Both the position numbers and the translations under genes were made by a program. Below are positions 1 through 10,282 of a DNA stretch of 40,167 bases, in pieces. The DNA comes from Oscillospiraceae bacterium. Lineage in GTDB: Bacteria; Bacillota; Clostridia; Oscillospirales; CAG-272. A model generated the notes under the pieces. The model was not told where the DNA came from. It made no database searches and saw only the letters and a program-made list of their open reading frames with translations. Every line of letters begins with the position of its first letter. Within the stretch, counting starts at the first letter, position 1. The stretch covers positions 1 through 40,167 of the forward strand of contig SVSG01000020.1 of assembly GCA_015064415.1 (NCBI GenBank), read 5' to 3'.

Positions 1-45
1 AGGGCGGCAAAAGAGGCAAAGGCAATAGGCTTGAGTATACGAAAG

Positions 46-119
46 CCAGCGGCTTGAGCCGCTGGCCGGTAGTATTGGGCTTTTAGCCCTTGTGCAAACC
101 ACCCGTTTGACGGGTGGTT
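46..119. repeat. Cluster of three perfect hairpins (dispersed-repeat type)
   Basis: Three perfect palindromes follow one another: 46-65 (8-bp stem CCAGCGGC, loop TTGA), 77-89 (GGGCT/AGCCC) and 97-119 (AACCACCCGT-type stem, loop TTG). The last stem core, CCACCCG, recurs in the hairpin cluster at the other end of the window (40085-40103). No open reading frame is present. Such clusters are usually dispersed intergenic repeats in clostridial genomes. A link to IS200/IS605-type elements is an inference. Confidence 0.5.
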
Positions 120-140
120 ATGATTATGATGGGATTAGCG

Positions 141-292
141 AAAAGCTACCCTCCGAGAGGGAGGGGGACCGCGATAGCGGTGGAAAGAGCCTGCGTGACC
201 TTGAGCTTAGCTTGACTTTATTGTAACGCACTCTCCCTCAGTCACCGTCTGTGACAGTTCCCTCCCGAAGGGAGACTTAGAATGCGCACAAC
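141..292. repeat. MITE-like palindromic repeat
   Basis: About 150 bases bounded by imperfect inverted ends. The left end (AAGCTACCCTCCGAGAGGGAG) and the reverse complement of the right end (AAGTCTCCCTTCGGGAGGGA) agree at most positions. Internal hairpins include ACCGCGATAGCGGT and GTCACCGTCTGTGAC. The pattern resembles the small CTCCCTC...GAGGGAG repeats scattered through gut clostridial genomes. It has no coding capacity. Copy number elsewhere in the genome cannot be judged from this window. Confidence 0.5.
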
Positions 293-314
293 CAAAGGGG
301 TATGGGCTTTGCCC

Positions 315-339
315 TACGCCTTTGTATTACAAAGGCGTA
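315..339. terminator. Perfect 11-bp hairpin, possible terminator of the membrane-protein gene
   Basis: TACGCCTTTGT (315-325) pairs perfectly with ACAAAGGCGTA (329-339) across a 3-base loop. It lies 65 bases beyond the stop of the minus-strand gene 405-1304. No clear T-run follows on the minus strand, so it could equally be part of the repeat cluster to its left. Confidence 0.35.
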
Positions 340-404
340 ACCGGCGATAAAACGGAGCAGTTAAATAAGAGCTTGAAGAGCAATAAACCGCTTCAGCATC
401 CGGA

Positions 405-1304
405 TTAAGGGTAGATAACGAATGCGAAGAAAAAGTGCAGAATTTTTTGCAGGAAGCCGAGGGGAACCTCATAGAAGTCCAATTGTCCGACATTGGAGTA
501 GATGGGCTCTATGAATAGGGAAAGGATAGCGACGATGGTACCGATCGTCAATGTAATGCAAAGGATGGGGCTGAACAAAAGTGTCAGAATCAAGTAGATA
601 GAAATATGCATTTCAAAGCCACCGCTTACCTTACCCCAGCCGGCTTCGATGGCGTCATTGGTCAGAGAAAGGGGGTTGGAGGAATACGTCTTGAACTTCG
701 CGCCGCTTCGATGCTCAAACTTATAGTTGCCATTGTAGGTTTCAACCGTCACAGCGCAACCGCGAATCGACACCAAGAACGCTGCCGAGAGGAAGAGGAT
801 AAAAAATGATAAAATGGGGTTGAGCAGCGGTATATTTAAACCCGCGAGGAAAGAGGGAACGCTACCTATCATTCCGAAAAGACCATATGCCATCAAAAGG
901 GATAGGGGGAGAACAAAGAAAGCCATCAGAATTAGATTTGCCACCCGCCCTATACGGAATTCACTCCCGAGTTCGATGTAAAACAGGTATCCAAAGATGG
1001 CGGCGATCACGTTGTCATCATCGAAGGTCAACTCAAGGCTACTTTCTTGAAAGCGCGTGCTAACAATCGTTCCGAGAAGAATGCGAATGAAGGCGATGGG
1101 GGCCAAAAGGAACTCCATCAGATAGGGGAAGATCTGAATACATTCTCTAAGCCGCCCCATAGCCAATGCAAGGGCAGCCAAAAGAACTGCAAGGAAGATA
1201 ATGGGCACGGCCTTGTCCTGCATGCTCGACGTTGCAATCCCGATTATGCTCATGCCAAGGATTGTCTGAAAAATGGAAACAACATATGCGAAAAACTTTT
1301 TCAT
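405..1304 (-). CDS. Multi-pass membrane protein of unknown function
   Basis: The 299-residue product is strongly hydrophobic. Roughly six to eight membrane segments can be seen, near residues 4-22, 30-50, 60-80, 120-145, 155-180, 235-265 and 278-299. A hydrophilic loop at about 182-230 (GCAVTVETYNGNYKFEHRSG) is probably a soluble domain. There is no cleavable signal peptide, no transporter signature and no catalytic motif that I recognise. The ATG at 1304 has a good ribosome site (AAGGGGAG) about 8 bases upstream. Its own promoter is at 1355-1383. It stands alone, between repeats and the tRNA-Ser flank, outside the integrated element. Function cannot be inferred. Confidence 0.75.
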   Translation of the reverse strand: MKKFFAYVVSIFQTILGMSIIGIATSSMQDKAVPIIFLAVLLAALALAMGRLRECIQIFPYLMEFLLAPIAFIRILLGTIVSTRFQESSLELTFDDDNVIAAIFGYLFYIELGSEFRIGRVANLILMAFFVLPLSLLMAYGLFGMIGSVPSFLAGLNIPLLNPILSFFILFLSAAFLVSIRGCAVTVETYNGNYKFEHRSGAKFKTYSSNPLSLTNDAIEAGWGKVSGGFEMHISIYLILTLLFSPILCITLTIGTIVAILSLFIEPIYSNVGQLDFYEVPLGFLQKILHFFFAFVIYP

Positions 1305-1354
1305 AATACGAACTCCCCTTATAATAATAGCTCAATATGCAATGGTCCGACCCC

Positions 1355-1383
1355 ATTATAGCACACACTTTTAGAAAAGTCAA
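1355..1383 (-). promoter_or_regulatory. Promoter of the membrane-protein gene
   Basis: On the minus strand, a -35 box TTGACT (1378-1383) and a -10 box TATAAT (1355-1360) are separated by 17 bases. They lie about 50 bases upstream of the ATG at 1304. This is a near-consensus housekeeping sigma promoter. Confidence 0.7.
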
Positions 1384-1592
1384 CAATTGAGGGCTACATT
1401 ACGTGGATTTTCGGCGTTTATTTACAGTCGATATTCAGTAGGCGTTTTTGTAAAAGATAGTAAAAGATATTATTAAAGGGCTAACGGCAAAAAGGTATTA
1501 GCGGTGTTGACGTCACGCTTGATATTTATTCTCACCCGGACGTTTCCATGCAGCAGATCTGTGTCGATTTTCTGCCAAAATAACAAAAAAGA
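1384..1592. other. Intergenic stretch with no recognisable gene
   Basis: AT-rich sequence between the promoter of the membrane-protein gene and the hairpin chain. Open frames crossing it are short, overlap on both strands and have no ribosome site. I see no RNA gene, clear promoter or repeat here. Confidence 0.5.
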
Positions 1593-1756
1593 GCACCCGA
1601 TTGGGTGCAAGCGCGATTTCGCGTCGAGAGAGAGGTATTCGCGCGATGCGCGAAAATTCGCACGCCCTCGCCCAGTGAATGCCGCGCGTTGCGCGGCGCT
1701 CCCCGATCTTCGGGCGGCGAAACCGAACTCTCGCCCCGCTATGCGGGGCAGAGTTC
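1593..1756. repeat. Chain of six short GC hairpins beside the attachment site
   Basis: Six consecutive palindromes with 3-4 base loops: 1593-1608 (GCACCC/GGGTGC), 1612-1623 (CGCGA/TCGCG), 1638-1654 (TTCGCGC/GCGCGAA), 1681-1697 (GCCGCGC/GCGCGGC), 1702-1714 (CCCGA/TCGGG) and 1725-1756 (GAACTCT plus CCCCGC paired with GCGGGG plus AGAGTTC). They lie just outside the element, in what was the sequence downstream of tRNA-Ser before integration. Open frames crossing them on both strands look like compositional artefacts. Confidence 0.55.
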
Positions 1757-1768
1757 TCTCTCCGGCAC

Positions 1769-1800
1769 AAAAAAAGCAGGGCGATTGCCCTGCTTTTTTT
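1769..1800. terminator. Displaced terminator of tRNA-Ser
   Basis: The stem GCAGGGC/GCCCTGC (1776-1782 with 1787-1793) is flanked by seven A residues on one side and a T-run on the other, so it can work in both directions. It touches the left copy of the tRNA 3' end. Before integration it would have followed the tRNA gene directly; the element now separates them by about 5.9 kb. Confidence 0.75.
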
Positions 1801-1824
1801 ATGGCGGAGAGAGAGAGATTCGAA
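1800..1824. other. attL: attL: left 25-bp copy of the tRNA-Ser 3' end
   Basis: This block is identical to 7654-7678. It contains the CCA end, the 3' acceptor strand, the 3' strand of the T stem and part of the T loop of tRNA-Ser. Downstream of the duplicated block the sequence departs from the tRNA (ATTTTCC in place of CTCTCG). A direct repeat of a tRNA 3' end with an integrase gene next to the other copy is the classic footprint of tyrosine-integrase insertion. Confidence 0.9.
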
Positions 1825-2220
1825 TTTTCCAACCGATGAAAAAACGGATAAAAACGAGTGCAATCAAATGCCGTCAAATCCTTGCGCAATCGGGGCTTTT
1901 AGGTTTTCTTGTGAAATTGAGGCAAATCGAAAGTTAAGGGGTAAGGGGTACGATAAGGGGTATGAAAATGGAGCGTGAATATCTCGCGCGCACGCGCTTT
2001 GTCGGCCCGAAAACGGGGGTGGTGGCTCCTTTGCGTCGGTGGTTTCTTGTGTGACCTCGCCGTAGCGGATGAAATTCACAAACGTCTACGTTTTTGCGTT
2101 CCCTCTCGGGCGATTTTCGTATTTTTGGGGGAGTGGTCAGCGTTCGAACTTCGACGAGCATCGAACGCCCCAACGCGCGCCTGCGCGTTTTTGTGTTCGA
2201 ACTTGTTCAAAGACCAACGA
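1825..2220. other. Left non-coding arm of the element
   Basis: Holds the integrase arm-type repeats (1936-1962) and several palindromes, including CGTTCGA...TCGAACG at about 2136-2168 and GCGCGCCTGCGC near 2176. Open frames here occur on both strands, lack ribosome sites and have biased composition, so I do not call a gene. The palindromes could be protein-binding sites or a replication or packaging region of the element, but nothing proves this. Confidence 0.4.
1936..1962 (+). repeat. Left integrase arm-type repeats
   Basis: Three copies of AAGGGGTA lie at 1936-1943, 1943-1950 and 1955-1962. The last 20 bases (1943-1962) are identical, in the same orientation, to 7551-7570 at the other end of the element. 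Paired subterminal repeats near both att cores are where tyrosine integrases bind with their N-terminal domain. Confidence 0.6.
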
Positions 2221-2249
2221 AAAAGGAGCGAGAGATCTCGCCCCTTTTT
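2221..2249. terminator. Terminator of the RHH-Fic operon
   Basis: An AAAAGG-GCGAGA stem pairs with TCTCGC-CCTTTT with one mismatch. It sits directly after the Fic stop codon on the minus strand and has A/T runs on both sides, so it could act in both directions. Confidence 0.65.
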
Positions 2250-2254
2250 GATGG

Positions 2255-2920
2255 TCATATTTCCAAGCCCTGGATGGCATTCTCGTATAGGAATAATTTC
2301 AGTGCCTCGGGCTCGCCGTTGTTATAATAATCAAACAGCAGACCGTTAAACTGCTCCATGTGTTTGTCTGTGATCGTCAGTATGCCCGCGCCCGCTTCAA
2401 GCAGGATCTTATTAGCGACCGTCAAGCTCGTGCGCTTGTTGCCGTCCCAAAAAAATTGCCCTCTCGCGCCCCAAACAAAAGCATTGAGCGCTTTTTCCGT
2501 GGCGGTGGTATCGGAGGCGAGGAGTGCGACTAATTGCTCCTCCACGCTCGAAAATTCGGGGATAGGCGGCAAATAGTCGGTGCCGGATATGCCTACGGTA
2601 CCTGTGCGGAGCTTTCCCCACTCTAACGCCTCATTTCGCGCGATAAACTCATTGAGCTTGCAAATATACTCCACGGTCAGTGGGGCGTCGATGCTACCCA
2701 TCAGATAACGCCAGGCGTCGCGCATATTGAGAATGGCTTGAATATCATCGAGCTGCACGCTCGGCACGTTCACGCCGTTTAAGATCGTGCGCGTTTGTGG
2801 GAAGGTCACGGCGCGGTTTTCCATCCGCATACCGCAATACACGTTTTCGTCCCACTTCTTTTTGGCAAGGAACGCGCTTTGCTCGGGGGTCAGATGGTAT
2901 TTGTCTTGGTATTTCATCAT
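2255..2920 (-). CDS. Fic/Doc-family protein with Gln in place of the catalytic His
   Basis: The 221-residue product shows the Fic fold. An N-terminal helical part is followed by the flap region at 102-120 (G-x-x-R-x-x-x-V-x-I-x-G-x-x-Y-x-P-P) and the Fic motif at 155-163. That motif reads QFFWDGNKR, against the family consensus HxFx(D/E)GNxR. D159, G160, N161 and R163 (nucleotide and phosphate binding) are present, but the catalytic His is Gln155. Canonical Fic enzymes transfer AMP, and Doc transfers phosphate, to protein hydroxyls using that His. This one may bind nucleotide without the usual chemistry, or use another mechanism. Its start overlaps the stop of the RHH gene by 4 bases (ATGA), so the two are translationally coupled. 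It could be a toxin, a regulator or an anti-phage factor. Confidence 0.85.
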   Translation of the reverse strand: MMKYQDKYHLTPEQSAFLAKKKWDENVYCGMRMENRAVTFPQTRTILNGVNVPSVQLDDIQAILNMRDAWRYLMGSIDAPLTVEYICKLNEFIARNEALEWGKLRTGTVGISGTDYLPPIPEFSSVEEQLVALLASDTTATEKALNAFVWGARGQFFWDGNKRTSLTVANKILLEAGAGILTITDKHMEQFNGLLFDYYNNGEPEALKLFLYENAIQGLEI

Positions 2921-3105
2921 AGCTTTTTATCCCTCTCTATGGTTTCCCGTATCGCTCTTTGGATAAATCCGTTAACGCTACCATTGTCATATTTGTCCGC
3001 GTGCGCCTTTAACGTTTCTTTTTCGCCCTTGGGCACTGTTAGATTGATGCGATCATAGTTTTTATCATTGTATCGGTTTTTAACTGCGGCTGATGTTTTT
3101 CCCAT
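2917..3105 (-). CDS. Ribbon-helix-helix protein, putative antitoxin and autoregulator
   Basis: The product has 62 residues. Residues 18-27 (DRINLTVPKG) form the expected beta strand. Two helices follow (about 28-40 and 43-58, SVNGFIQRAIRETIERD), as in Arc/CopG DNA-binding proteins. The frame is open further upstream, but the ATG at 3105 is preceded by a strong AGGAGGTG site, which fixes the start. It is the first gene of a two-gene operon with the Fic protein. The inhibitory helix motif of VbhA/FicA-type Fic antitoxins (S/T-x-x-x-E-G/N) is not seen, nor a Phd-like sequence. If it is an antitoxin it is of a different kind. The repeated operator in its promoter fits autoregulation. Confidence 0.75.
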   Translation of the reverse strand: MGKTSAAVKNRYNDKNYDRINLTVPKGEKETLKAHADKYDNGSVNGFIQRAIRETIERDKKL

Positions 3106-3124
3106 GATTTCACCTCCTGCATAT

Positions 3125-3153
3125 ATTATACTATACCCAAGGGGATTGCGCAA
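3125..3153 (-). promoter_or_regulatory. Promoter of the RHH-Fic operon
   Basis: On the minus strand, the -35 box TTGCGC (3148-3153) and the -10 box TATAAT (3125-3130) are separated by 17 bases. The -35 box lies inside the first copy of the TTGCGCAAGTAT repeat (3146-3157), so a protein bound there would block RNA polymerase. Confidence 0.7.
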
Positions 3154-3224
3154 GTATGCAAAATGCACAAAAATACTTGCGCAAGTTCGTGTAAAATTCC
3201 GGCTTGACATAGTTGCGCAAGTAT
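3146..3224. promoter_or_regulatory. Three copies of a 12-bp operator between divergent promoters
   Basis: TTGCGCAAGTAT occurs exactly at 3146-3157 and 3213-3224, and inverted (ATACTTGCGCAA) at 3173-3184. The core TTGCGCAA is itself palindromic. Copy 1 covers the -35 box of the RHH-Fic promoter. Copy 3 lies in the spacer of the opposing promoter. The RHH protein is the likely ligand, since RHH antitoxins commonly bind such repeats. This is inference. Confidence 0.65.
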
Positions 3225-3232
3225 GATACAAT
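3204..3232 (+). promoter_or_regulatory. Promoter of the small-gene operon
   Basis: TTGACA (3204-3209), a 17-base spacer and TACAAT (3227-3232) form a strong promoter reading right, about 50 bases before the ATG at 3281. A copy of the 12-bp operator fills most of the spacer. Confidence 0.75.
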
Positions 3233-3280
3233 ATAGGTGTAAGGCAAGGGAGCCACCCCGATACGAAAGGAAGTGAGGCA

Positions 3281-3403
3281 ATGACCGATGGCATGACAAA
3301 TGCAGAGTTCAACGCTTTTCTTGAAACGCTGGCGAAGCTGATCGAGAGCAAAGCGCAGACACCTGCCGAGGCCGCCGAGATCGTTCGGCAAGCCAAGGCA
3401 TAA
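3281..3403 (+). CDS. 40-residue small protein, first gene of the plus-strand operon
   Basis: The ATG at 3281 follows a good ribosome site (AAGGAAGTGAGG) and lies about 50 bases downstream of a strong promoter. The product, MTDGMTNAEFNAFLETLAKL followed by IESKAQTPAEAAEIVRQAKA, is predicted to be helical and acidic, with no cysteines and no membrane segment. It resembles short host-regulation or accessory proteins of phages but is not recognised. It is followed by a 130-base gap before the next gene. Confidence 0.6.
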   Translation: MTDGMTNAEFNAFLETLAKLIESKAQTPAEAAEIVRQAKA

Positions 3404-3408
3404 GAAAA

Positions 3409-3447
3409 AGGTAGCGACCGCCAACCAAGCAAACCGCTACCTAACCC
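3409..3447 (+). terminator. Inverted repeat after the 40-residue gene
   Basis: GGTAGCG pairs with CGCTACC around a loop rich in CAACC/CAAACC, a few bases after the stop at 3403. No T-run follows, so it may be an attenuator, an RNA-processing stem or a protein site rather than a true terminator. Confidence 0.3.
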
Positions 3448-3549
3448 CCAAAAAGGGCGAGCAGAGAGCCTTACCCCTGCCGCCCTCCATTATACACGAG
3501 TAAGGCGACAAAGTCAAGTCAAAAATCAAAATTTATGGAGGAACACAAA

Positions 3550-3825
3550 ATGAGCGTTAATGAAATGAGCAGCAAGATCCGCGAGCTGAAGGAGCTGAAA
3601 GCATTTGCCGAGCAGATTGCCGAGGAGATCACCGCCCTGGAGGATGCCATTAAGGCGGAAATGACCGCCCGCAACACCGAGGAGCTGACCGTGGACGTTT
3701 ACAAGGTCAGATGGACCACCGTCAACAGCAGCCGCTTTGATACCACGGCTTTCAAAAAGGCCATGCCCGAGCTTGCAGAGCGTTACACCAAGCAAACGAC
3801 CACCCGCCGCTTTTCTATCGCGTAA
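3550..3825 (+). CDS. 91-residue coiled-coil-type protein, mobile-element associated
   Basis: I place the start at the ATG at 3550, because GGAGGA lies just upstream. The in-frame ATG at 3535 overlaps that site and is unlikely to be used. Residues 1-45 are heptad-like and charged (SSKIRELKELKAFAEQIAEE and on), predicting a coiled coil. Residues 46-91 carry RWTTVNSSRFDTTAFKKAMP and end in TTTRRFSIA. Proteins of this design are common in clostridial phages and plasmids, where they sit among early genes. A role in nuclease inhibition or single-strand handling has been suggested for similar shapes but cannot be shown here. It is followed 11 bases later by the next gene, so the two share an operon. 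Confidence 0.7.
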   Translation: MSVNEMSSKIRELKELKAFAEQIAEEITALEDAIKAEMTARNTEELTVDVYKVRWTTVNSSRFDTTAFKKAMPELAERYTKQTTTRRFSIA

Positions 3826-3836
3826 GGAGGCAAAAA

Positions 3837-4076
3837 ATGACCGAGAACACACAACGCCTCTTGAACAACGCACACGACCATATGCAAAGCGCAAGCAGCT
3901 TACTGACCGTATTTTATGACCGATACTTTGAAAACCGAGAGGGCGGAGCCGCCGCCCTCTCCGAGGATGTCAAAGCGCGCCCCGAAATGATCGGCAATTT
4001 CGTTTGCACCGTGCTTCGCCTGCTCAACACCGCAGAAAAGAACCTCGGTGTCGCCCTCTCGGAGGTGGATGCGTGA
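3837..4076 (+). CDS. 79-residue element protein, paralogue of its downstream neighbour
   Basis: The ATG at 3837 has an AAGGAGG site at a normal distance. The product has no membrane segment or metal-binding motif. Its C-terminal part (RPEMIGN, then LRLLNTAEKNLGV) matches the next gene (RPDFVGN, then LHLLYEVKKELGV), with a similar aromatic patch upstream (FYDRYF against FWEHYF). The two are therefore probably diverged tandem duplicates. Function is unknown; the position in an early operon of the element suggests a role in replication control or host take-over. Confidence 0.65.
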   Translation: MTENTQRLLNNAHDHMQSASSLLTVFYDRYFENREGGAAALSEDVKARPEMIGNFVCTVLRLLNTAEKNLGVALSEVDA

Positions 4077-4408
4077 TGCAGTACACAAAGCAAGAGATCG
4101 TGACAATTGCGATCGCCACATACGATGCCGGAGTTTATCTTGATACCGCATACGATAGCTTGCACGCTTTTTGGGAACATTATTTTGGTTACACAGATCC
4201 TATCCATCGAAGCGAGCTTGTTTCTGATGCCCAAGACCGCCCCGATTTCGTTGGAAACCAGCTGTATGGAATTCTTCACCTGCTCTACGAGGTAAAAAAG
4301 GAATTGGGTGTGTTCGCGGATCCCGATTGCCCAGCCGTGCAAGCATACATGGCAAATGCAAGGGAAAAGCAGGCGATCATAGACACCCAAAAAGAAACGG
4401 AGAAATAA
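4076..4408 (+). CDS. 110-residue element protein, paralogue of its upstream neighbour
   Basis: The ATG (4076-4078) shares one base with the TGA of the previous gene, and GGAGGT lies at 4061-4066 inside that gene, so translation is coupled. The first residues (MQYTKQEIVTIAIATYDAGV) are helical. The central motif RPDFVGN-x-x-x-x-x-L-x-LL-x-x-x-K-x-LGV is shared with the 79-residue neighbour. The product is longer at both ends and finishes with a charged helical tail (AREKQAIIDTQKETEK). No known domain is recognised. Confidence 0.65.
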   Translation: MQYTKQEIVTIAIATYDAGVYLDTAYDSLHAFWEHYFGYTDPIHRSELVSDAQDRPDFVGNQLYGILHLLYEVKKELGVFADPDCPAVQAYMANAREKQAIIDTQKETEK

Positions 4409-4417
4409 AAGTGCAGA

Positions 4418-4447
4418 GCCGGCAAGATTAGGCCTTGTCGGCTTTTT
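4418..4447 (+). terminator. Terminator of the plus-strand small-gene operon
   Basis: GCCGGCAAG pairs with CTTGTCGGC (one G-T pair) and is followed by TTTTT. The stop codon of the convergent gene (4428-4430) lies in the loop, so the two operons meet tail to tail with a shared end. Confidence 0.75.
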
Positions 4448-5165
4448 GTTCGCCCTCTCCGTATGTGCGATTGAGTGCAGCTTGAAAAAAATCGTCAACA
4501 TCAAAAGAAGATCCCTCTCGCTCCCGGAGAAGCTCGTCTTCCCATTGCTCGCGCCTTAACCAAGTCGCAGGGTTGGGAATGTATTGTTTATCTTGCCATT
4601 GCCCGCTTTGTTTTTGGGCTTGAATGGCTACGAGTATGGTATCTAATAGGATAGTGCCCGGCTTGATCTTTTCAAACGCTTTTTGAGCCTCTTTTTTAGC
4701 AACCTTTTTCGGGTATGCCTCCCAAAAACGATCAAATGCGGTTTCTGTTTCTATCTCTCCCTCGGGAGAGGGAGTAATATCATTATCATTGTCATTATCA
4801 TTATCATTGTCATTATCATTATCATTGTCATTATCATTATCATTATCGGTTTTTTTCGGTTTTTCTAAAAACCGTTCGGTTTTTGATAAAACCGTTTGCT
4901 TTCTCGGTCTGCCGCCCTTGGCGCCGTTTTTGGCGTTTATTTGGCATTTTTTATCGTACTCAGCCCTATTGATATCAAGAGCAGTTTTGATAAATGAAAA
5001 CGCCATCCCCACAACTGGCGACATCTCGATTTCGACCGTGCCGCTTCTCTCGTATTCAAAAATGGCAGTTATGAGCCGCCCGCGATCCTCCAAGGCAAGT
5101 AGCTTAAATTGTTCCTCGTGAGTTTTATAAAGAACAAACGAGTTTTTTCCGTTTTTGTCATTCAT
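4428..5165 (-). CDS. Replication-type protein with DUF6291-like N-terminus and Asp-Asn repeat
   Basis: The product has about 245 residues. Residues 8-70 (SFVLYKTHEEQFKLLALEDR, then MAFSFIKTALDINRAEYDKK) match the N-terminal domain of clostridial phage replication or DnaD-like proteins (DUF6291). A basic GRPRK patch follows. A run of eleven Asp-Asn pairs forms a flexible acidic linker. The C-terminal part (FDRFWEAYPKKVAKKEAQKA, then YIPNPATWLRREQWEDE) is typical of phage replisome organisers and helicase-loader-like proteins. The ATG at 5165 is preferred over an in-frame TTG two codons earlier because AAGGTG is well spaced from it. It is the last gene of a three-gene minus operon after two HTH genes. 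The role in element replication is inferred. Confidence 0.75.
   Translation of the reverse strand: MNDKNGKNSFVLYKTHEEQFKLLALEDRGRLITAIFEYERSGTVEIEMSPVVGMAFSFIKTALDINRAEYDKKCQINAKNGAKGGRPRKQTVLSKTERFLEKPKKTDNDNDNDNDNDNDNDNDNDNDNDITPSPEGEIETETAFDRFWEAYPKKVAKKEAQKAFEKIKPGTILLDTILVAIQAQKQSGQWQDKQYIPNPATWLRREQWEDELLREREGSSFDVDDFFQAALNRTYGEGEQKADKA
4781..4846 (-). repeat. Hexanucleotide microsatellite encoding Asp-Asn pairs
   Basis: Eleven 6-base units, CATTAT or CATTGT on the plus strand, occur mostly in an 18-base pattern (CATTAT CATTGT CATTAT). On the coding strand they give alternating Asp and Asn codons. Gain or loss of units keeps the frame, so the linker length of the replication protein can vary without inactivating it. 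Confidence 0.9.
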
Positions 5166-5177
5166 GACCAAAACACC

Positions 5178-5363
5178 TTAAAACCCTTCCGCTTGCTTCA
5201 CCAGCCACCGCTTCAAGCTCTCCACCGGGATAATAATACGCCGTTCCGACACTCTGATGGCGGGGAACCCCTCTTTTTTGGATAGCTCATAGGCAACGGG
5301 GCGCGAGATCCCCAGCATTGCCGCCATTTCATCCACCGATAACGTTAATTTTTCTTCGCTCAT
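5178..5363 (-). CDS. Excisionase-like helix-turn-helix protein
   Basis: The 61-residue product fits the HTH_17/excisionase family. Residues 7-28 (LSVDEMAAMLGISRPVAYEL) form the winged-helix recognition part, and residues 29-55 (GFPAIRVSERRIIIPVESLK, then RWL) form the wing and the characteristic closing helix. Such proteins direct excision by bending DNA at the attachment sites, or act as AlpA-type activators in satellites. The ATG overlaps the stop of the upstream HTH gene by 4 bases (ATGA). It lies 12 bases before the replication gene. Its location away from the integrase, in the lytic-side operon, matches a gene expressed on induction. Confidence 0.75.
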   Translation of the reverse strand: MSEEKLTLSVDEMAAMLGISRPVAYELSKKEGFPAIRVSERRIIIPVESLKRWLVKQAEGF

Positions 5364-5542
5364 TTGTCCCCCTCCTTCAATTTTTGAATAGCAGCCATCA
5401 CGTTGGCTTTCTGCTCCGCCGAAAGCTCCTTGCGCGCGATCAGACGCGAGAAGGAGGCCTCATGCATCCCGAGCGCGGCGGCGACCTCGTAATTATACAC
5501 TCTTGCTTTTTTGATGGCATCTCGAATTTCAATGTTGAACAT
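5360..5542 (-). CDS. Small Cro-like DNA-binding protein
   Basis: The 60-residue product is basic and helical: NIEIRDAIKKARVYNYEVAA, then LGMHEASFSRLIARKELSAE. The part from about residue 16 to 40 fits a helix-turn-helix of the Cro/XRE or phage-regulator type. It is the first gene after the leftward promoter at 5598-5626, divergent from the repressor. That is the position of Cro in a lambda-like switch. The ATG at 5542 is followed by a 4-base overlap with the next gene. No other feature is recognised. Confidence 0.7.
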   Translation of the reverse strand: MFNIEIRDAIKKARVYNYEVAAALGMHEASFSRLIARKELSAEQKANVMAAIQKLKEGDK

Positions 5543-5570
5543 TATTTTTTCTCCTTTTCGTTAATTCTTG

Positions 5571-5599
5571 TTGACATAACGTGTTCGTTATGGTACAAT
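5571..5599 (+). promoter_or_regulatory. Rightward promoter of the repressor (and integrase)
   Basis: TTGACA (5571-5576), a 17-base spacer and TACAAT (5594-5599). The spacer is almost filled by a perfect inverted repeat, ATAACG-TGTT-CGTTAT (5576-5591), a likely operator. The -10 box overlaps the -10 box of the opposing leftward promoter. Confidence 0.8.
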
Positions 5600-5626
5600 T
5601 ATAACATAGCAATCAATCATTGTCAA
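5598..5626 (-). promoter_or_regulatory. Leftward promoter of the Cro/excisionase/replication operon
   Basis: On the minus strand, TTGACA (5621-5626) and TATAAT (5598-5603) are separated by 17 bases: a consensus promoter. It overlaps the rightward promoter by 2 bases at the -10 boxes, so polymerase should not be able to occupy both at once. Confidence 0.8.
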
Positions 5627-5660
5627 CAAGATTTTGCTATGTCGAGCAACAACATAGCAA
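5604..5660. promoter_or_regulatory. Three ACATAGCAA operator repeats
   Basis: ACATAGCAA occurs at 5604-5612 and 5652-5660 and inverted (TTGCTATGT) at 5634-5642. The first lies in the spacer of the leftward promoter. The others lie in the leader of the repressor gene. They are candidate binding sites for the XRE repressor or the Cro-like protein. Confidence 0.55.
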
Positions 5661-5690
5661 ATGTGATATTTTGGAAAAGAGGTAAATTGT

Positions 5691-6383
5691 ATGGATAACA
5701 AAATTTCCCTTGGAACACGCTTGAATAACGCACTTGCCTGCCGTAATGTGAAGCAGAAAGAGCTCGCTCGGTATTTGAACGTCCCCGATAACACCATTTC
5801 TTATTTCTGTAAAGACAAGAGAACGCCGAATGTGCGGCAAATTGCCGAGATTGCCAAACGTCTGGAAGTTTCGGCGGATTATCTTTTGGGCGTTTCGGAT
5901 GTAATGACGACAGACACCGCCACACGCGAGCTGTGCTTGACTTTGGGATTGACCGACATTGCGATAGAACACCTGCGGAACGATCAAGAAAGGAGCGTTC
6001 GTGATGCGGTTAATTTCCTTTTTTGGCAACACGAGCAATATAAGAAAGCCAAACCTGCAGACGATGCCTTTGAAAAAAACACTTCTTTTTTAGAACTTCT
6101 ATCTCGATTTTGTGATTTGAAGAATGCAACGCAAGATTTAATGATAGGTCTAAATTTAGACGGTGAATTAACAGTTCGTTTGTCGGATATATCGACAAAC
6201 TCTCTCAATGAAGAAAACGCCCTCAAATGTCAAATGACGGGCTTGCGCGGATTTGTTTCAACTTCTTTGATAGAGGCAGTAACCAACGATATTATTTATG
6301 ACATTACGCAACTATTGCGTTCGATCTCCGTCAAACAAGTGGAGAAAATCGAATGGGAACAGTGGCGCAAAGAAAGCAAATAA
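5691..6383 (+). CDS. XRE-family repressor of the element
   Basis: The product has 230 residues. Residues 8-67 form a clear HTH_3 domain (TRLNNALACRNVKQKELARY, then TPNVRQIAEIAKRLEVSADYLLG). The remaining 160 residues are mainly helical and lack the Ser-Lys LexA/CI self-cleavage motif, so inactivation would need another signal. The ATG at 5691 is preceded by AAAAGAGG. It is transcribed right from the promoter at 5571-5599 and lies 12 bases before the integrase, so both are probably expressed together in the integrated state. It would repress the leftward operon. The ligand or antirepressor is unknown. Confidence 0.85.
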   Translation: MDNKISLGTRLNNALACRNVKQKELARYLNVPDNTISYFCKDKRTPNVRQIAEIAKRLEVSADYLLGVSDVMTTDTATRELCLTLGLTDIAIEHLRNDQERSVRDAVNFLFWQHEQYKKAKPADDAFEKNTSFLELLSRFCDLKNATQDLMIGLNLDGELTVRLSDISTNSLNEENALKCQMTGLRGFVSTSLIEAVTNDIIYDITQLLRSISVKQVEKIEWEQWRKESK

Positions 6384-6395
6384 GAGGTGAGGGAT

Positions 6396-7541
6396 ATGCC
6401 AAATAAAAGAAACGCCAAAGGCGGCGGATCTGTGCGCCAACGCGACAACGGCTCGTGGGAAGCTCGTTGCATGATCAACGGCAAGCGCAAGAGCTTTTAC
6501 GGGGATCGGCAAGCGGACGTATTAAAGGCCATGCGCGCCGCGCAAAAGGCGGCGGACGATGGCGCGTACTTTGAGCCGGCGAAAACCTCCCTCTCGAAAT
6601 GGCTTGATTTATGGCTCGAGGAATACGTTCGCCCCTCGGTGAAGCCGTTGACCTACTCCACCTATAAAAGCCGCGCGGAAACGCGCATAAAGCCGGCGCT
6701 TGGCAGGCAAAAACTTACAACGCTGAACGCCACGCAAATACAAGCATTTTACAACGATCTTTTGCGAGTGCAAGCGCTGCACCCGAAAACGATAAAGAAC
6801 ATTCACGGCATATTGCACAAGGCGTTAGAGCAGGCGCTGAAGCTCCGTTATATCGGCTTCAATCCCGCGGATGCCTGCACACTGCCGCGCATTGAAAAAA
6901 AGGAGATTAAGCCCCTCTCGGAGAGCGAGATTTCAGCGTTTTTGGATCTGATCCGAGAGGGAGAGCCCCTGCGAGATCTGTTTACCGTCGCGCTGTTCAC
7001 GGGGATGCGTAAGGGCGAGATCTGCGGCTTGTCCTGGAGCGCCGTCAACTTTCGAGAGGGAGCGATCACGGTCAAGCAGCAGCTTTGCAAGGAAAAAGAA
7101 AAAGGCGGGCGGCATTATATCGCACCCACCAAAAGCGACAAGGCAAGGACCTTGACCGTTGCGCCGTTTGTTATAGAGATTTTGAGAAGGGTAAAAAGGG
7201 AGCAGCTTGCCAACCACCGCGCGGCGGGCTTGGCTTGGCAAAATGAATTTGATCTCGTGTTTACCGATAAGGCGGGCCGCTATATCGTGCCGCAAACCGC
7301 CCTCAAACGGTTCAAAGCGGTTGCGAGCAGGATCGGGCGCCCCGATGCGCGCTTTCACGACCTGCGCCATACCTACGCGGTCACAGCCCTGCAGGAGGGG
7401 GACGACGTTAAGACTGTGCAGCAAAACCTCGGGCACGCAACCGCGAGCTTTACGCTCGACGTGTACGGCCATGTGTCGGAAAAGATGAAGAAGGAAAGCG
7501 CCGCCCGAATGCAGTCCTATTTTGAGAAAATCAACGCCTAA
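6396..7541 (+). CDS. int: Tyrosine integrase of the element
   Basis: The product has 381 residues. The N-terminus (GGGSVRQRDNGSWEARCMIN) is an arm-binding AP2-like domain. Residues 63-150 form the SAM-like core-binding domain. Residues 170-375 form the catalytic domain. The catalytic residues are visible: R205 (TGMRKGE), a Lys near 247, H321-x-x-R324 (HDLRHTYA), H347 (LGHA) and Tyr357 (DVYGH). I start at the ATG at 6396 after AGGTGAG; an in-frame GTG lies 3 codons upstream. The gene ends 112 bases from the right att core, as expected for site-specific insertion into tRNA-Ser. Two arm-type repeats follow its stop codon. Confidence 0.95.
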   Translation: MPNKRNAKGGGSVRQRDNGSWEARCMINGKRKSFYGDRQADVLKAMRAAQKAADDGAYFEPAKTSLSKWLDLWLEEYVRPSVKPLTYSTYKSRAETRIKPALGRQKLTTLNATQIQAFYNDLLRVQALHPKTIKNIHGILHKALEQALKLRYIGFNPADACTLPRIEKKEIKPLSESEISAFLDLIREGEPLRDLFTVALFTGMRKGEICGLSWSAVNFREGAITVKQQLCKEKEKGGRHYIAPTKSDKARTLTVAPFVIEILRRVKREQLANHRAAGLAWQNEFDLVFTDKAGRYIVPQTALKRFKAVASRIGRPDARFHDLRHTYAVTALQEGDDVKTVQQNLGHATASFTLDVYGHVSEKMKKESAARMQSYFEKINA

Positions 7542-7550
7542 AAAACCTAT

Positions 7551-7570
7551 AAGGGGTACGATAAGGGGTA
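7551..7570 (+). repeat. Right integrase arm-type repeats
   Basis: Two AAGGGGTA units (7551-7558 and 7563-7570) form a 20-base block identical to 1943-1962. It lies 83 bases from the right core. The matching subterminal blocks are the best candidates for integrase arm sites. Confidence 0.6.
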
Positions 7571-7603
7571 AAGCACCAAAAATCTCTACAAAATCAAGAA
7601 AAG

Positions 7604-7648
7604 AAAAAACCTTGGAAACCCAGTAAAATCGGGCGTTCCAAGGTTTTT
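7604..7648. terminator. Terminator shared by integrase and tRNA-Ser
   Basis: CCTTGGAA (7610-7617) pairs with TTCCAAGG (7636-7643), with an A-run before and a T-run after. It ends integrase transcription on the plus strand. On the minus strand it replaces the tRNA terminator that integration moved to 1769-1800. Confidence 0.75.
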
Positions 7649-7653
7649 CTGTA

Positions 7654-7678
7654 TATGGCGGAGAGAGAGAGATTCGAA
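7654..7678. other. attR: attR: right 25-bp core inside tRNA-Ser
   Basis: Identical to 1800-1824. It covers the CCA end, the acceptor 3' strand and the T-arm 3' half of the intact tRNA gene. Confidence 0.9.
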
Positions 7679-7747
7679 CTCTCGTTGGGGTATTAGCCCA
7701 AACACGATTTCCAGTCGTGCGCCTTAGACCAGCTCAGCCATCTCTCC
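7656..7747 (-). tRNA. tRNA-Ser (anticodon GGA)
   Basis: The gene is 92 bases long. The 7-bp acceptor stem is GGAGAGA/TCTCTCC, followed by discriminator G and an encoded CCA (7656-7658). The anticodon arm is CACGA-CTGGAAA-TCGTG with anticodon GGA (complement at 7710-7712). There is a long variable arm (TTGGGCTAATACCCCAA), as in serine tRNAs, and a T arm GAGAG-TTCGAAT-CTCTC. The alternating GA run of the T and acceptor stems forms the insertion core. The tRNA is complete, so the host function is preserved. Confidence 0.97.
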
Positions 7748-7832
7748 ACGCGACCCACACATTATAACAGATTTTGCGCTGCTTGTCAAGGGGGTATTTG
7801 AAAAAAGTTGCACTTTTTGCACTTTTTTGAAC

Positions 7833-7876
7833 AAAGGGATGGAAATCGCGGCAAAGTGCGCGATTTACATCCCTTT
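7833..7876. terminator. Long hairpin after the AraC-family gene
   Basis: AAAGGGATG...AAATCGCG (7833-7850) pairs with CGCGATTT-CATCCCTTT (7859-7876), giving about 17 pairs with one mismatch on each arm. It lies immediately after the stop of the minus-strand regulator. The T-run is weak, so termination strength is uncertain. Confidence 0.5.
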
Positions 7877-7880
7877 TGCA

Positions 7881-8726
7881 TCATCCCATGCGGTATTTGG
7901 AGGGTGGTGTGCCAAAATGCTTTTTGAAATAGGCGGAAAAGTAGGCAATGTCACAAAAGCCTGCCGCCAAGGCGACCTCTCCCACCGACATTCCCGTGTT
8001 CTCCAGCAATCCGGCGGCGCGCATCAGTCGCAGATGCAGAACGTACCGGTGAAGCGGCATCCCCGTCATACGCTTGATCAGCGCGCTGATGTAATTGGGA
8101 TGATAGCCAAAGGCCTTGGCAACGATTTGGTTGGTGATCTCCTCTGCATAATGCTTTTGCACATAGGAAATGACGGCATGGGAGCTTTCGGTCGCGTTGG
8201 GGGCTTGACCGATCTGCTGGCAGCGCAGACAATCGGCAATGCATTCCGCCAATAAATGCCCGCACTTTTCACTGTGATACAGCAGCTGCCGCGTGTACTC
8301 GCCAAGAAGCCGCACCAGATTTTTGTGGATGCTGTCGATCTCCCGCAGATAAAGCACACCCGAAAGCGGAGTGGCATCCTCAAATTGACGAGGGTCGGTG
8401 CGCATGCTTTCCTTGAAATTCACCTTTGATTCCGGCTTGATGGGAATATTCAGATGTGCCGCTGTCCGCGTGTGGTCGAAATTGATCGCAATATAATCCG
8501 CAAAATCCAAAGGCGTTTCGATGTGATAGGGAATTCCCGAATGAATCAGCAAAAGCGCGTGAGGAGCCATTTCATACGTCATATGACCGACCTTTATTTT
8601 ACCGTATCCGCCAATGGCGTAGAACAGTCGCGCATCCGGCGCGATCACCTCGTCATAGCGGCTTGATCTGTCAAGCTTCAGGTATCTTGCATACCTGACA
8701 AAGGGATTGATCTGTGAAAAAAGCAT
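7881..8726 (-). CDS. AraC-family regulator of the carbohydrate locus
   Basis: The product has 281 residues. The N-terminal half (VIAPDARLFYAIGGYGKIKV, then MAPHALLLIHSGIPYHIETP) is a cupin-like sensor domain. The C-terminal 95 residues hold two helix-turn-helix motifs (EEITNQIVAKAFGYHPNYIS and MSVGEVALAAGFCDIAYFSA), ending in the usual FKKHFGTPPSKYR. I prefer the ATG at 8726 because GGGTGAG is just upstream; an in-frame TTG 4 codons earlier includes that site. It is divergent from the isomerase-like gene, so it probably controls it in response to a sugar. The ligand is not identifiable. Confidence 0.85.
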   Translation of the reverse strand: MLFSQINPFVRYARYLKLDRSSRYDEVIAPDARLFYAIGGYGKIKVGHMTYEMAPHALLLIHSGIPYHIETPLDFADYIAINFDHTRTAAHLNIPIKPESKVNFKESMRTDPRQFEDATPLSGVLYLREIDSIHKNLVRLLGEYTRQLLYHSEKCGHLLAECIADCLRCQQIGQAPNATESSHAVISYVQKHYAEEITNQIVAKAFGYHPNYISALIKRMTGMPLHRYVLHLRLMRAAGLLENTGMSVGEVALAAGFCDIAYFSAYFKKHFGTPPSKYRMG

Positions 8727-8751
8727 ACTCTCACCCAATCTTTATTTTACA

Positions 8752-8765
8752 CAAACTTGTGTTTG
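8752..8765. promoter_or_regulatory. Inverted repeat between AraC gene and isomerase gene
   Basis: CAAAC-TTGT-GTTTG is a perfect 14-base inverted repeat in the divergent intergenic region, between the regulator start and the rightward promoter. It is a candidate regulator site; binding is not shown. Confidence 0.35.
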
Positions 8766-8774
8766 AATTATATA

Positions 8775-8803
8775 TTGATTATATCATCTGCACGTGCTAA
8801 AAT
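8775..8803 (+). promoter_or_regulatory. Promoter of the isomerase-like gene
   Basis: TTGATT (8775-8780), 17 bases and TAAAAT (8798-8803) lie about 36 bases upstream of the ATG at 8840. The -35 box is imperfect, as expected for an activated promoter. Confidence 0.55.
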
Positions 8804-8839
8804 CAAGTAGAAAAGAAAATTTTTAGGGGGGGCTTTCTC

Positions 8840-10282
8840 ATGATAGAAAGACAAAAAAAGCGTACGGCGCGGGTGGGGATCTTTGCGGTGGCGCACGGCA
8901 CCTATTTCACTCAGTTTGAAGGGCTTTTCGAAAACCTTTTGCGCTATCACGTGGATCTTTGCGGCATTGTCAGTGCCAATGAAGTTGAGCTGATCGACTT
9001 CGGTATGGTAGACAGCAACGAAAAAGCGTACAGCGTGGCAGATCAAATGATGGGGGCGCGGCTTGATCTTGTGTTTTGCAATATGATCACCTATGCCACC
9101 TCGTCGGTTTTCGCCCCAATCATGCGGGCACTGCCGTGTCCTGTGGTGCTACTTGCATTACAGCCGCGCGCGGCTTTGGATTATAGCAGGGCCAACACCT
9201 TTATGCAGCTGGAAAACGATAATATCTGCTCGGTTCCCGAATTTATCGGGGTGGCAAACCGTCTGGGTAAGCGAGTCAGCGATTGTATCATTGGCACGCT
9301 TTACGGTGGAGAGTGCTTGCCGGAGATTGCCGAGTGGTGCGATATAGCGAAGGTTCTGCACGATCTGAAGGGGGCGCGCCTTGGGCTGATGGGGCACACC
9401 ATGGAGGCTATGTACGATATGCACACCGATCCCACGGCAGTATCGGCGGCGTTTGGCGTGCACGTGCCTCTTCTGGAGATCGATGATGTGATCCGATTGT
9501 ACGGCGAGATCAGCGAAGCCGAGGTGGCGGAAAAGATCGGGCAGATCAAGGCGGAATTCGACATGCCGGATCCCGGCTCTGACCCGATCGCCTCTAAGCT
9601 TACCGAGGCGGATCTTGATCAGGCGGCAAGAACGGCGGTGGCGCTGGACAAGCTGGTGCAGGCGTACGGTCTGACGGGACTTGCCTATTATTATGAGGGT
9701 GGAGAAGACACGATGCACAGACAACTTGCCACCACCTTTATCGTGGGTAATTCCATTCTCAATGCCAAGGGGATCCCCATGTGCGGCGAGTACGATATCA
9801 AGACCTGCATCGCGATGCTGATCATGGATAGATTGGACATCGGCGGCAGCTTTGCCGAATTCCATCCTTTCGACTTTGCGAAGGACTTTGTTCTGGTCGG
9901 TCATGACGGTCCCCATCACCTGAAAATTGCCGAGGGGCGCCCCGTACTGCGCAGTCTTTGCAAGTACCACGGAAAGCCCGGTAGCGGCGCTTCGGTCGAG
10001 TTCAAGATCAAGGAGGGGGAGATCACCATTTTTGGCATCACTCAAACCGCCGAAAACAAGTTCAAGTTCGTGATCGGAGAGGGGTATTCCAAGGCGGGCC
10101 CCATTCCTCCGACGGGTAACACCAACACGAGAGGATTTTTCGCCCCTAGCACGAAGGAATTTGTCAAAAAGTGGGTGATGGAGGGCCCCACGCACCACTT
10201 CGCGCTCGGAGTGGGGCATCACGCCAATACCATCGCCAAGATCGCACAGGCACTTGGCATCGAGTACGTCATCGTGAAATAA
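8840..10282 (+). CDS. L-arabinose/L-fucose isomerase-family protein
   Basis: The 480-residue product is close to the length of L-arabinose isomerase. Residues expected to bind the metal and substrate are in place and in order: E286 (YYYEGGED), E317 (CGEYD), H355 (VGHDGPHH) and H452/H453 (THHFALGVGHH). The N-terminal part (VAHGTYFTQFEGLF, then YSVADQMMGARLDLVFCNMI) also fits the family. Such enzymes interconvert aldoses and ketoses in the cytoplasm. It is not the classical AraA of an araBAD operon: no ribulokinase or epimerase is nearby. The true sugar is therefore open. Its stop is followed 10 bases later by the WbsX-like gene, with which it forms an operon. Confidence 0.8.
   Translation: MIERQKKRTARVGIFAVAHGTYFTQFEGLFENLLRYHVDLCGIVSANEVELIDFGMVDSNEKAYSVADQMMGARLDLVFCNMITYATSSVFAPIMRALPCPVVLLALQPRAALDYSRANTFMQLENDNICSVPEFIGVANRLGKRVSDCIIGTLYGGECLPEIAEWCDIAKVLHDLKGARLGLMGHTMEAMYDMHTDPTAVSAAFGVHVPLLEIDDVIRLYGEISEAEVAEKIGQIKAEFDMPDPGSDPIASKLTEADLDQAARTAVALDKLVQAYGLTGLAYYYEGGEDTMHRQLATTFIVGNSILNAKGIPMCGEYDIKTCIAMLIMDRLDIGGSFAEFHPFDFAKDFVLVGHDGPHHLKIAEGRPVLRSLCKYHGKPGSGASVEFKIKEGEITIFGITQTAENKFKFVIGEGYSKAGPIPPTGNTNTRGFFAPSTKEFVKKWVMEGPTHHFALGVGHHANTIAKIAQALGIEYVIVK

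Follow-up and report, generated by a model that had tools for sequence, protein, structure and literature searches.

A 5.9-kb integrative element in a tRNA-Ser gene of an Oscillospiraceae bacterium, a probable minimal phage satellite

Contig SVSG01000020.1 of an Oscillospiraceae bacterium (assembly GCA_015064415.1) carries an integrative element of 5,854 bp at the 3' end of a tRNA-Ser gene. The whole contig (40,167 nucleotides), hereafter referred to as the window, was analysed; it is contig C17 of the 43 contigs of a 2.25-Mb source genome that is 81% complete. On balance, we regard this region as an intact, self-integrating element that probably behaves as a phage satellite of minimal form; most likely it is a stripped-down virus parasite, which would borrow the coats of its viruses. 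It is described here as a satellite-like integrative element, the minimal variant of a lineage in which some members have packaging genes, and it is filed neither as a phage-inducible chromosomal island (PICI) nor as a phage-inducible chromosomal minimalist island (PICMI). We infer its satellite status, and its packaging, from the sequence. The satellite reading is strengthened by the terminase or portal genes that are found in sibling elements.

The element is delimited by two copies of the 3' end of the tRNA-Ser(GGA) gene, its attachment (att) sites (Table 1). A preliminary description of this DNA had reported exact 25-bp direct repeats around about 5.9 kb, and the repeat search confirmed them. 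The integrase lies beside this direct repeat and the tRNA gene is reconstituted, an arrangement that characterizes integrative elements with a tyrosine integrase and a tRNA target. The 22-nt att core, searched with up to 2 mismatches, has only the two att copies in the source genome, and a reversed control pattern gave zero matches there. As the core is confined to these two sites, the proposal that attL is one of several dispersed repeats near tRNA-Ser was rejected. Insertion into the 3' end of a tRNA predicts a hairpin of the original locus to the left of attL and a different hairpin, belonging to the element, to the left of attR, and both are seen. In tRNA-Ser loci of relatives without an integrase match, the equivalent of the first hairpin abuts the 3' end of the tRNA; the hairpin beside attL is probably the original terminator, pushed aside by the insertion. 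Among known RNA families, the tRNA alone scored above threshold in positions 1-9000 of the window. Inside both ends lies a perfect 21-bp repeat, TAAGGGGTACGATAAGGGGTA (1942-1962 and 7550-7570), two matches of which occurred in 0 of 100 shuffles. It falls within short arrays of AAGGGGTA, and we read repeat and arrays as candidate integrase arm sites; by sequence, such sites match at both ends, as in other integrative elements.

The preliminary description had listed an integrase, an excisionase-like protein, a repressor/Cro pair, a replication-type protein (Rep), four small genes and a Fic/ribbon-helix-helix (RHH) pair, all of them intact. The list of open reading frames (ORFs) and the family scans agree with this list, and all the listed ORFs are open. 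The four small ORFs, o40, o91, o79 and o110, span positions 3281-4408 on the plus strand. Pfam and PHROGs scans covered ten element proteins (all but the integrase), as did an NCBIfam scan (all but the CI repressor). Neither structural nor primase families were matched among the scanned proteins in these three libraries, and no relaxase family turned up in the general library scans. The window also gave no tblastn match at E<=0.01 to the large terminase (TerL), two small terminases (TerS), portal and DnaC-like loader of sibling elements, so the reported lack of structural or transfer genes held at this level. The excisionase-type helix-turn-helix (HTH) protein scored 13.4 bits against AlpA, where the cut-off is 21.

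Table 1 Features of the element and its borders, in window coordinates.
Feature	Position	Strand	Basis
A/T-tract hairpin adjoining attL, probably the original tRNA-Ser terminator (inferred)	1769-1800		sequence
attL, 25-bp exact duplicate of the 3' end of tRNA-Ser	1800-1824		sequence repeat search
Candidate integrase arm-type sites at the left end, three AAGGGGTA spaced 7 + 12	1936-1962	+	sequence
Fic-fold protein, 221 aa	2255-2920	-	PF02661 E=2.9e-7; phrog_11900
RHH regulator, 62 aa, 4-nt overlap with Fic	2917-3105	-	phrog_13890 E=4e-20; sub-threshold RHH_5
Control region beside RHH, three TTGCGCAA operator candidates	3146-3232		sequence
o40, 40 aa; L108 counterpart 85% identical across 39 aa	3281-3403	+	sequence comparison
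o91, 91 aa, matches C-terminal part of phage RecE-like/YqaJ-type recombination proteins	3550-3825	+	phrog_6244, phrog_434
o79, small protein, probable o110 paralogue	3837-4076	+	30% over 59 aa
o110, small protein; weak relative in L115, by-eye resemblance in L174	4076-4408	+	sequence comparison
Rep, DUF6291 N-terminal and phage replication-initiation C-terminal domain, 245 aa	4428-5165	-	PF19808 E=1.3e-25; phrog_16304, 9327, 270
Rep C-terminal tail matching host DnaD tail	4446-4520	-	sequence comparison
18-bp tandem repeat in rep, 3.7 copies, 100% match, candidate iterons/origin	4778-4844		repeat finder
Excisionase-type HTH (Xis), 61 aa	5178-5363	-	PF12728 E=4e-11; TIGR01764 29.7 bits, cut-off 28.8
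Cro-like HTH, 60 aa, named mainly by position	5360-5542	-	phrog_17740 (unknown function) E=3e-9; weak HTH
Face-to-face sigma-70-type promoter-like sites of the CI/Cro switch	5571-5626		consensus matches
CI-type repressor, 230 aa	5691-6383	+	PF01381 E=1.6e-8; phrog_8
Tyrosine integrase (Int), 381 aa, points toward the tRNA	6396-7541	+	NCBIfam scan; dN/dS
Candidate integrase arm-type sites at the right end, two AAGGGGTA spaced 12	7550-7570	+	sequence
Terminator-like hairpin of the element, now 3' of the tRNA	7604-7649 (about)		sequence, by eye
attR, overlaps the intact tRNA	7654-7678		sequence repeat search
tRNA-Ser, anticodon GGA, reconstituted target gene	7656-7747	-	tRNA and RNA-family scans

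A scan of genome contigs for the integrase confirmed 9 loci. The close siblings, by integrase identity, are L113 (83%), L114 (84%), L115 (76%) and L116 (77%). L113 comes from a metagenome-assembled genome titled Oscillospiraceae, and L114-L116 come from such genomes titled Clostridia, from roe deer, sheep and goat gut. The gene order RHH, Rep, Xis, Int of the window is kept in L113-L115, so the search for the same order in tRNA-Ser that had been suggested was successful as regards the genes; the tRNA differs, with three close siblings lying beside tRNA-Ser(GCT) and not GGA (in all, L114, L115, L116, L117 and L120 lie beside GCT). The gene o91, a marker of this lineage, is present in L113 and L114, as is Fic, which is cut by the contig end in L114. 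L113 gave matches to both CI and Cro, and L115 to CI alone. L116, which is cut early, has matches to Int, Xis and a nuclease, and a Rep-type ORF recognised by eye. AAGGGGT arrays are found at both ends of L113 and L115; the left array of L113 has the 7 + 12 spacing of the window with one base changed, while that of L115 is spaced 12 + 12. At the visible right end, L114 has two copies and L116 one. L117 has a different motif, TAAAGGGAAAAC, twice at each end.

The siblings differ between Rep and o91. In L114 this interval encodes a DnaC-like loader, a nuclease (phrog_244), a TerS-like protein (phrog_2538), TerL (PF04466, E=7e-30, also PF17288) and a DUF4417 protein. The interval of L113 is like that of L114 except that there is no TerL match; its TerS and DUF4417 proteins are 96% identical to those of L114. 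L115, which is 6.6 kb long, has the loader and no match to the siblings' terminases or portal. Furthermore, L084, an IMG/VR contig of 10,441 bp, combines RHH-Fic (Fic 84%) with TerS (PF03592), a portal protein (PF06381), a short Rep-type ORF and Int. L114 and L116 are seen in part (L114 starts inside Fic, with attL out of view), and the size of L113, which has attL and no tRNA at its right end, is an estimate of about 9.5 kb.

The ratio of nonsynonymous to synonymous substitution rates (dN/dS) was calculated pairwise between window and sibling genes; dS was at least 1 in nearly all pairs, which makes the ratios rough. For Int, values of 0.06-0.07 were obtained in 3 of 4 pairs, the fourth being saturated, and for Fic 0.06-0.09 in 2 of 4, the other two being saturated. 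The o91 values were 0.05-0.22 (3/3 pairs), Xis gave 0.10 in the one unsaturated pair of 3, and all three RHH pairs were saturated. Taken together, Int, Fic and Xis have a dN/dS of 0.06-0.10 in the unsaturated pairs (6 of 11).

The linker of Rep is encoded by an 18-bp tandem repeat, and the rep genes of L113, L114, L115, L116 and L118 have DNA-level linker repeats of their own, with periods of 12-24 bp and 82-100% match. These in-gene repeats are candidate iterons, for which lambda O offers a precedent; slippage is an alternative origin for them. A search of solved structures with Rep gave two matches, both to the low-complexity linker. The last ~20 residues of Rep, GSSFDVDDFFQAALNRTYGE, match the C-terminus of the chromosomal DnaD of the host. 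DnaD was recovered in 19 of the 21 genus genomes, and all 19 proteins end in the tail motif. The tail of Rep differs at 2 of 20 positions from that of G016 DnaD and at 6 of 20 from that of the source-genome DnaD, and the match extends to the DNA level in four genomes (~50 bp at 80-82%).

With a 25-residue tail query (E<=0.5), 31 places were found in 19/21 genus genomes, comprising the window Rep, the 19 DnaD proteins and 11 other ORFs (L201-L211). The classification of these eleven covers all but L201. Five have initiator-family matches: Lin1244_N in L206, Phage_rep_org_N in L208, phage replication-initiation in L202, a DnaD-like helicase loader in L209 and DUF6291, below cut-off, in L203. By eye, L205 resembles L206, and L204, L207, L210 and L211 resemble L203. 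Around some tail-bearing loci, for example L210 and L211, no mobile-element neighbours were recognised. The strict tail motif has 24 matches (22 distinct genes, as L180/L182 and L181/L195 overlap) in 436 ORFs from genus loci, many of which were picked for the tail or for dnaD; it is always near the C-terminus and never internal. None of 62 Rep-like ORFs taken from viral and sibling loci of other hosts has the pattern, which fits a tail tied to the genus. A count of loaders over the same 62 ORFs was discarded, since the loader expression flagged 2 of them and missed the DnaC-like genes of L113-L115.

The window element has the tail and no loader match, whereas L113, L114, L115 and, weakly, L084 have a DnaC-like loader without the full tail. 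The tail of Bacillus subtilis DnaD contacts the co-loader DnaB and single-stranded DNA (PMC13326638 and PMC10201434). We propose that the copied tail would let Rep recruit the helicase-loading machinery of the host. The papers listed by a limited literature search included no report of such a copied DnaD tail.

Two control regions can be recognised. Between Cro and CI, a palindrome, CATAACGTGTTCGTTATG, lies at 5575-5592 under the promoter-like sites. At the other control region, beside RHH, the last TTGCGCAA sits between the -35 and -10 of a promoter-like site that reads in the plus direction, into the small-gene operon. Upstream of RHH, L113, L114, L115 and L084 each have one or two exact operator-candidate copies and additional imperfect ones: the CTTGCGCAAG form is kept in L113 (one exact copy) and L115 (two), and ATTTGCGCAAAT is found in the same region of L114 and L084 (two each), where RHH is more divergent. 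Because of these sites, in window and siblings, RHH is better seen as a putative regulator of the divergent region than simply as an antitoxin of Fic. The RHH/Fic pair had been described as cargo; the genes are present as stated, and this description has to be amended for RHH, which looks like a promoter regulator, and for Fic, in which the motif His is replaced. All five aligned Fic sequences, including that of the window, have Gln at this position (GQFFWDGNKRT or GQLFWDGNKRT), and alignment to FICD places the Gln of the window protein where the motif His is expected. As it is conserved and lacks the usual catalytic His, the Fic-like protein is probably a cargo or interference factor and not a standard AMPylase. 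A role as a component of a named defence system was not retained, PADLOC having given weak PDC-S04 matches only. In L113 and L114, an extra gene that matches the PADLOC candidate family PDC-S13 lies between RHH and Fic, and the RHH-Fic end therefore looks like a cargo slot. We take the intervening proteins to be BRO-like in L113 and DinD-like in L114.

About 290 bp around o40 (window 3227-3518) are 74% identical to positions 8730-9023 of L108, whose genome belongs to another family of the order. The hairpin that follows o40 differs in sequence in L108, yet pairing seems possible in both by eye, which suggests that the o40 region may be a structured leader.

Sizes were surveyed in 27 loci that have a tRNA near an integrase, by looking for a repeat of the 3' end of that tRNA. 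A second copy was found in 11 of them, at 6.6-14.8 kb (L107, L115, L157, L117, L159, L171, L160, L099, L089, L105 and L154); L115 has three candidate att copies, the copy of L089 is imperfect, and the integrases of L089, L099 and L105 are ~28% identical. The preliminary description had named two findings that would speak against it, a larger prophage at this place in relatives and the lack of any empty tRNA-Ser site. The bounded relatives are small, as just given, and empty sites exist. Integrase matches were found at 4 of the 20 tRNA-Ser(GGA) loci of relatives (L089, L092, L099 and L105) and not at 16, of which 12 show no similarity to the window integrase across a 3' flank of 1.8 kb or more and 4 have a 3' flank shorter than 650 bp. 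The genomes with such sites belong to other species, of the same genus and family, and emptiness here means lack of similarity to the window integrase. Since other elements with distant integrases use this same site, it is an integration hot spot; three of the four (L089, L099, L105, L092) are bounded, at 9.2-10.9 kb. At E<=1e-90, integrase matches were found in 26 of 394 genomes of the order, the source genome included, its own family being otherwise unrepresented. A DNA search of 118 genomes (own included; two best candidates each) gave no other match that spans the element.

As a side observation, modules of ~150-220 bp adjoin tRNA-Ser in the window (1580-1799) and in L087, L088, L091, L094, L095, L096, L097, L101 and L103. 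They combine a terminator hairpin with an inverted piece and with either part of the tRNA-Ser 3' end or a sequence that looks like it; some are arranged in tandem, with three matches in L087. Elsewhere in the source genome, the window module has weak partial copies only. They are possibly scars of earlier integrations or a nonautonomous repeat.

Two distant relatives have packaging genes. L154 (2523-17308; 14.8 kb, the largest bounded locus) lies at tRNA-Val, its integrase is 53% identical, and it encodes portal, major head and TerL proteins; no tail gene was recognised by eye. By its gene content it looks like a candidate capsid-forming PICI (cf-PICI). L174 (MT836267.1, an unannotated record; human fecal samples, Mexico) is 11,458 bp long and is probably circular at 11.3 kb, because it has a 124-bp exact terminal repeat. 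It encodes TerL (63% to L114), a TerS match, o91 (49%), an RHH match, an integrase (29%), a primase-type protein and, by eye, a DinD-like protein; no capsid gene was recognised, the profile scans covering some of its ORFs. Our guess is that it stems from a virus-like-particle study (PMC8361208), the accessible text of which contains no MT8 accession. L174 thus points to a circular or concatemeric DNA form of a relative with terminase genes, as distinct from the window element itself.

Based on these observations, a working model can be put forward. A helper phage, temperate or virulent, would relieve the CI switch, and Int and the HTH protein would excise a 5.85-kb circle. Rep would open the origin at the repeats inside its own gene, and its tail, copied from host DnaD, would recruit the helicase-loading machinery of the host, so that no loader gene would be needed. 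The DNA would be packaged wholly by helper proteins, since the window member would have lost, or never had, the TerS/TerL/portal module. The second switch, RHH on its operator sites, would likely control the o40-o91-o79-o110 operon. A wider proposal is possible, although we hold it with more doubt than belief: a Clostridia tRNA-Ser satellite lineage may share a single chassis (Int-CI-Cro-Xis-Rep ... o91-RHH-Fic) in which the content of a packaging slot can be exchanged (none, TerS, TerS+TerL or TerS+portal), its minimal form replacing the loader gene by a fused DnaD tail, and this tail may be a portable host-docking module of several unrelated initiators of the genus.

Several observations weigh against the satellite reading. 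Neither a packaging gene nor a gene for capsid interference could be recognised in the window element. A helper prophage in the same genome, which the preliminary description had proposed to look for, was sought with four probes (HK97 capsid PF05065, Terminase_3 PF04466, portal PF04860 and the genus TerL) and none matched, within the limits of 81% completeness; the portal PF04860 is found in 0 of 21 genus genomes. The contrast between tail and loader is a thin one: in L117 and L118 the tail is missing (by eye) and no loader was matched, the Rep of L113 keeps a partial SLDEFF, the Rep ORF of L084 is short, and L116, on a cut contig, has a tail-like end and no loader match. L158, L163, L167 and L168 have at least 16 kb of flank with no second att copy and could be larger elements, and the only circular relative, L174, is distant (integrase 29%). 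Nor can capsid genes, though none was found in the close relatives, be called rigorously absent from relatives. The scans covered some of the relatives' ORFs, the ORFs of L171, L089, L099, L105 and L160 being viewed in part, and the tblastn yardstick, a set of structural proteins from Flavonifractor phage Castelnaud, failed to detect the L154 portal and head genes, which PHROGs picked up. On the other side, of the 21 genus genomes, the source genome among them, 5 have a prophage-type TerL (phrog_2), in one case interrupted by a stop, and possible helpers therefore exist in the genus. The earlier suggestion of a very small satellite thus stands as regards a complete, minimal element with small bounded relatives and terminase- or portal-bearing siblings, and lacks, as far as searched, a packaging gene and a helper.

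Three other explanations were weighed against the satellite. That neither a packaging gene nor a helper in the genome was found would suit a self-maintaining island that rarely excises or replicates and spreads by accidental transduction, generalised or lateral, or by transformation; a satellite moved by natural competence is described for Streptococcus thermophilus (PMC13376191). We nevertheless find this unlikely, for the dedicated switch, the in-gene repeat and the host-fitted replication protein suggest active replication after excision. It is quite unlikely that the region is what a larger temperate prophage left on losing its late genes and keeping its early region and integrase. The genes of the region are of the kinds that make up a phage early region, and a related integrase (42%) occurs in a full phage (Castelnaud, 37 kb), but both ends with their candidate arm sites are intact, the ORFs are open with low dN/dS, and the close siblings that can be judged are small (L115, and L113 with its right end estimated). 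This history was set aside on the sizes of relatives, the intact ends and selection. A mobilizable island without a relaxase, excised by its integrase and transferred in trans by a conjugative element through an origin of transfer (oriT) in noncoding DNA, for example 1965-2255, would give a use to the noncoding stretch near attL, which lacks explanation, and oriT-only plasmids that borrow a relaxase are described (PMC11389934). It is nonetheless improbable: the genes that siblings add are phage packaging genes, Rep, CI, the Cro-like protein and o91 match PHROG families, and neither relaxase nor secretion genes stood out when the siblings were inspected by eye, although no search aimed at such genes was made.

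If the element is a satellite, the concept would extend, in a very small form, to gut Clostridia that are known mostly from metagenomes. One backbone with and without packaging genes opens the minimal gene set of satellites to comparison. The copied DnaD tail yields a simple prediction on how small mobile elements obtain the replicative helicase of the host, and genome surveys could use it as a marker of mobile-element initiators and of their host range.

Among known systems, PICIs, which include the SaPIs, have an integrase, a regulator pair, a replication module and TerS. The window element shares with them the tyrosine integrase, a divergent repressor/early-regulator pair beside it (the Cro-like partner having weak HTH matches only), a replication module of its own, formed by the Rep families and candidate iterons, and the lack of structural genes. 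The PICI-like core logic that had been claimed is thus present, and the likeness stops at packaging: siblings L113, L114 and L084 carry TerS as PICIs do, whereas the window has neither TerS nor a recognised capsid-interference gene, and by tblastn no TerS, TerL or portal homologue. It is also smaller, at 5.9 kb against a PICI average of 9.5 kb (PMC10803314). The cf-PICIs are approached by the distant relative L154 with its portal, major head and TerL, and differ from the window element, in which the capsid/portal/terminase set was not found. The PICMIs of Vibrionaceae (PMC10803314) average ~6.7 kb, have few excision and replication genes and no capsid-remodelling genes, and are packaged by helpers; in small size, few excision/replication genes and lack of capsid-remodelling genes, the window element is like them. 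The site of PICMIs is fis, the genes int, alpA and prim are all required, and the helpers are virulent phages (PMC10803314), in contrast to the tRNA-Ser site, CI/Cro-type switch and primase-free DUF6291 initiator found here. The StCI satellites of S. thermophilus are small, att-bounded, inducible by virulent phages and found in hosts with few prophages (PMC13376191); the window element resembles them in size, att boundaries and a host with few prophages. Finally, Rep belongs among the replication initiators of Firmicutes phages (DUF6291, DnaD-like and Phage_rep_org_N), and the difference is that of host DnaD no more than the tail of ~20 residues is present, attached to N-terminal domains of several types.

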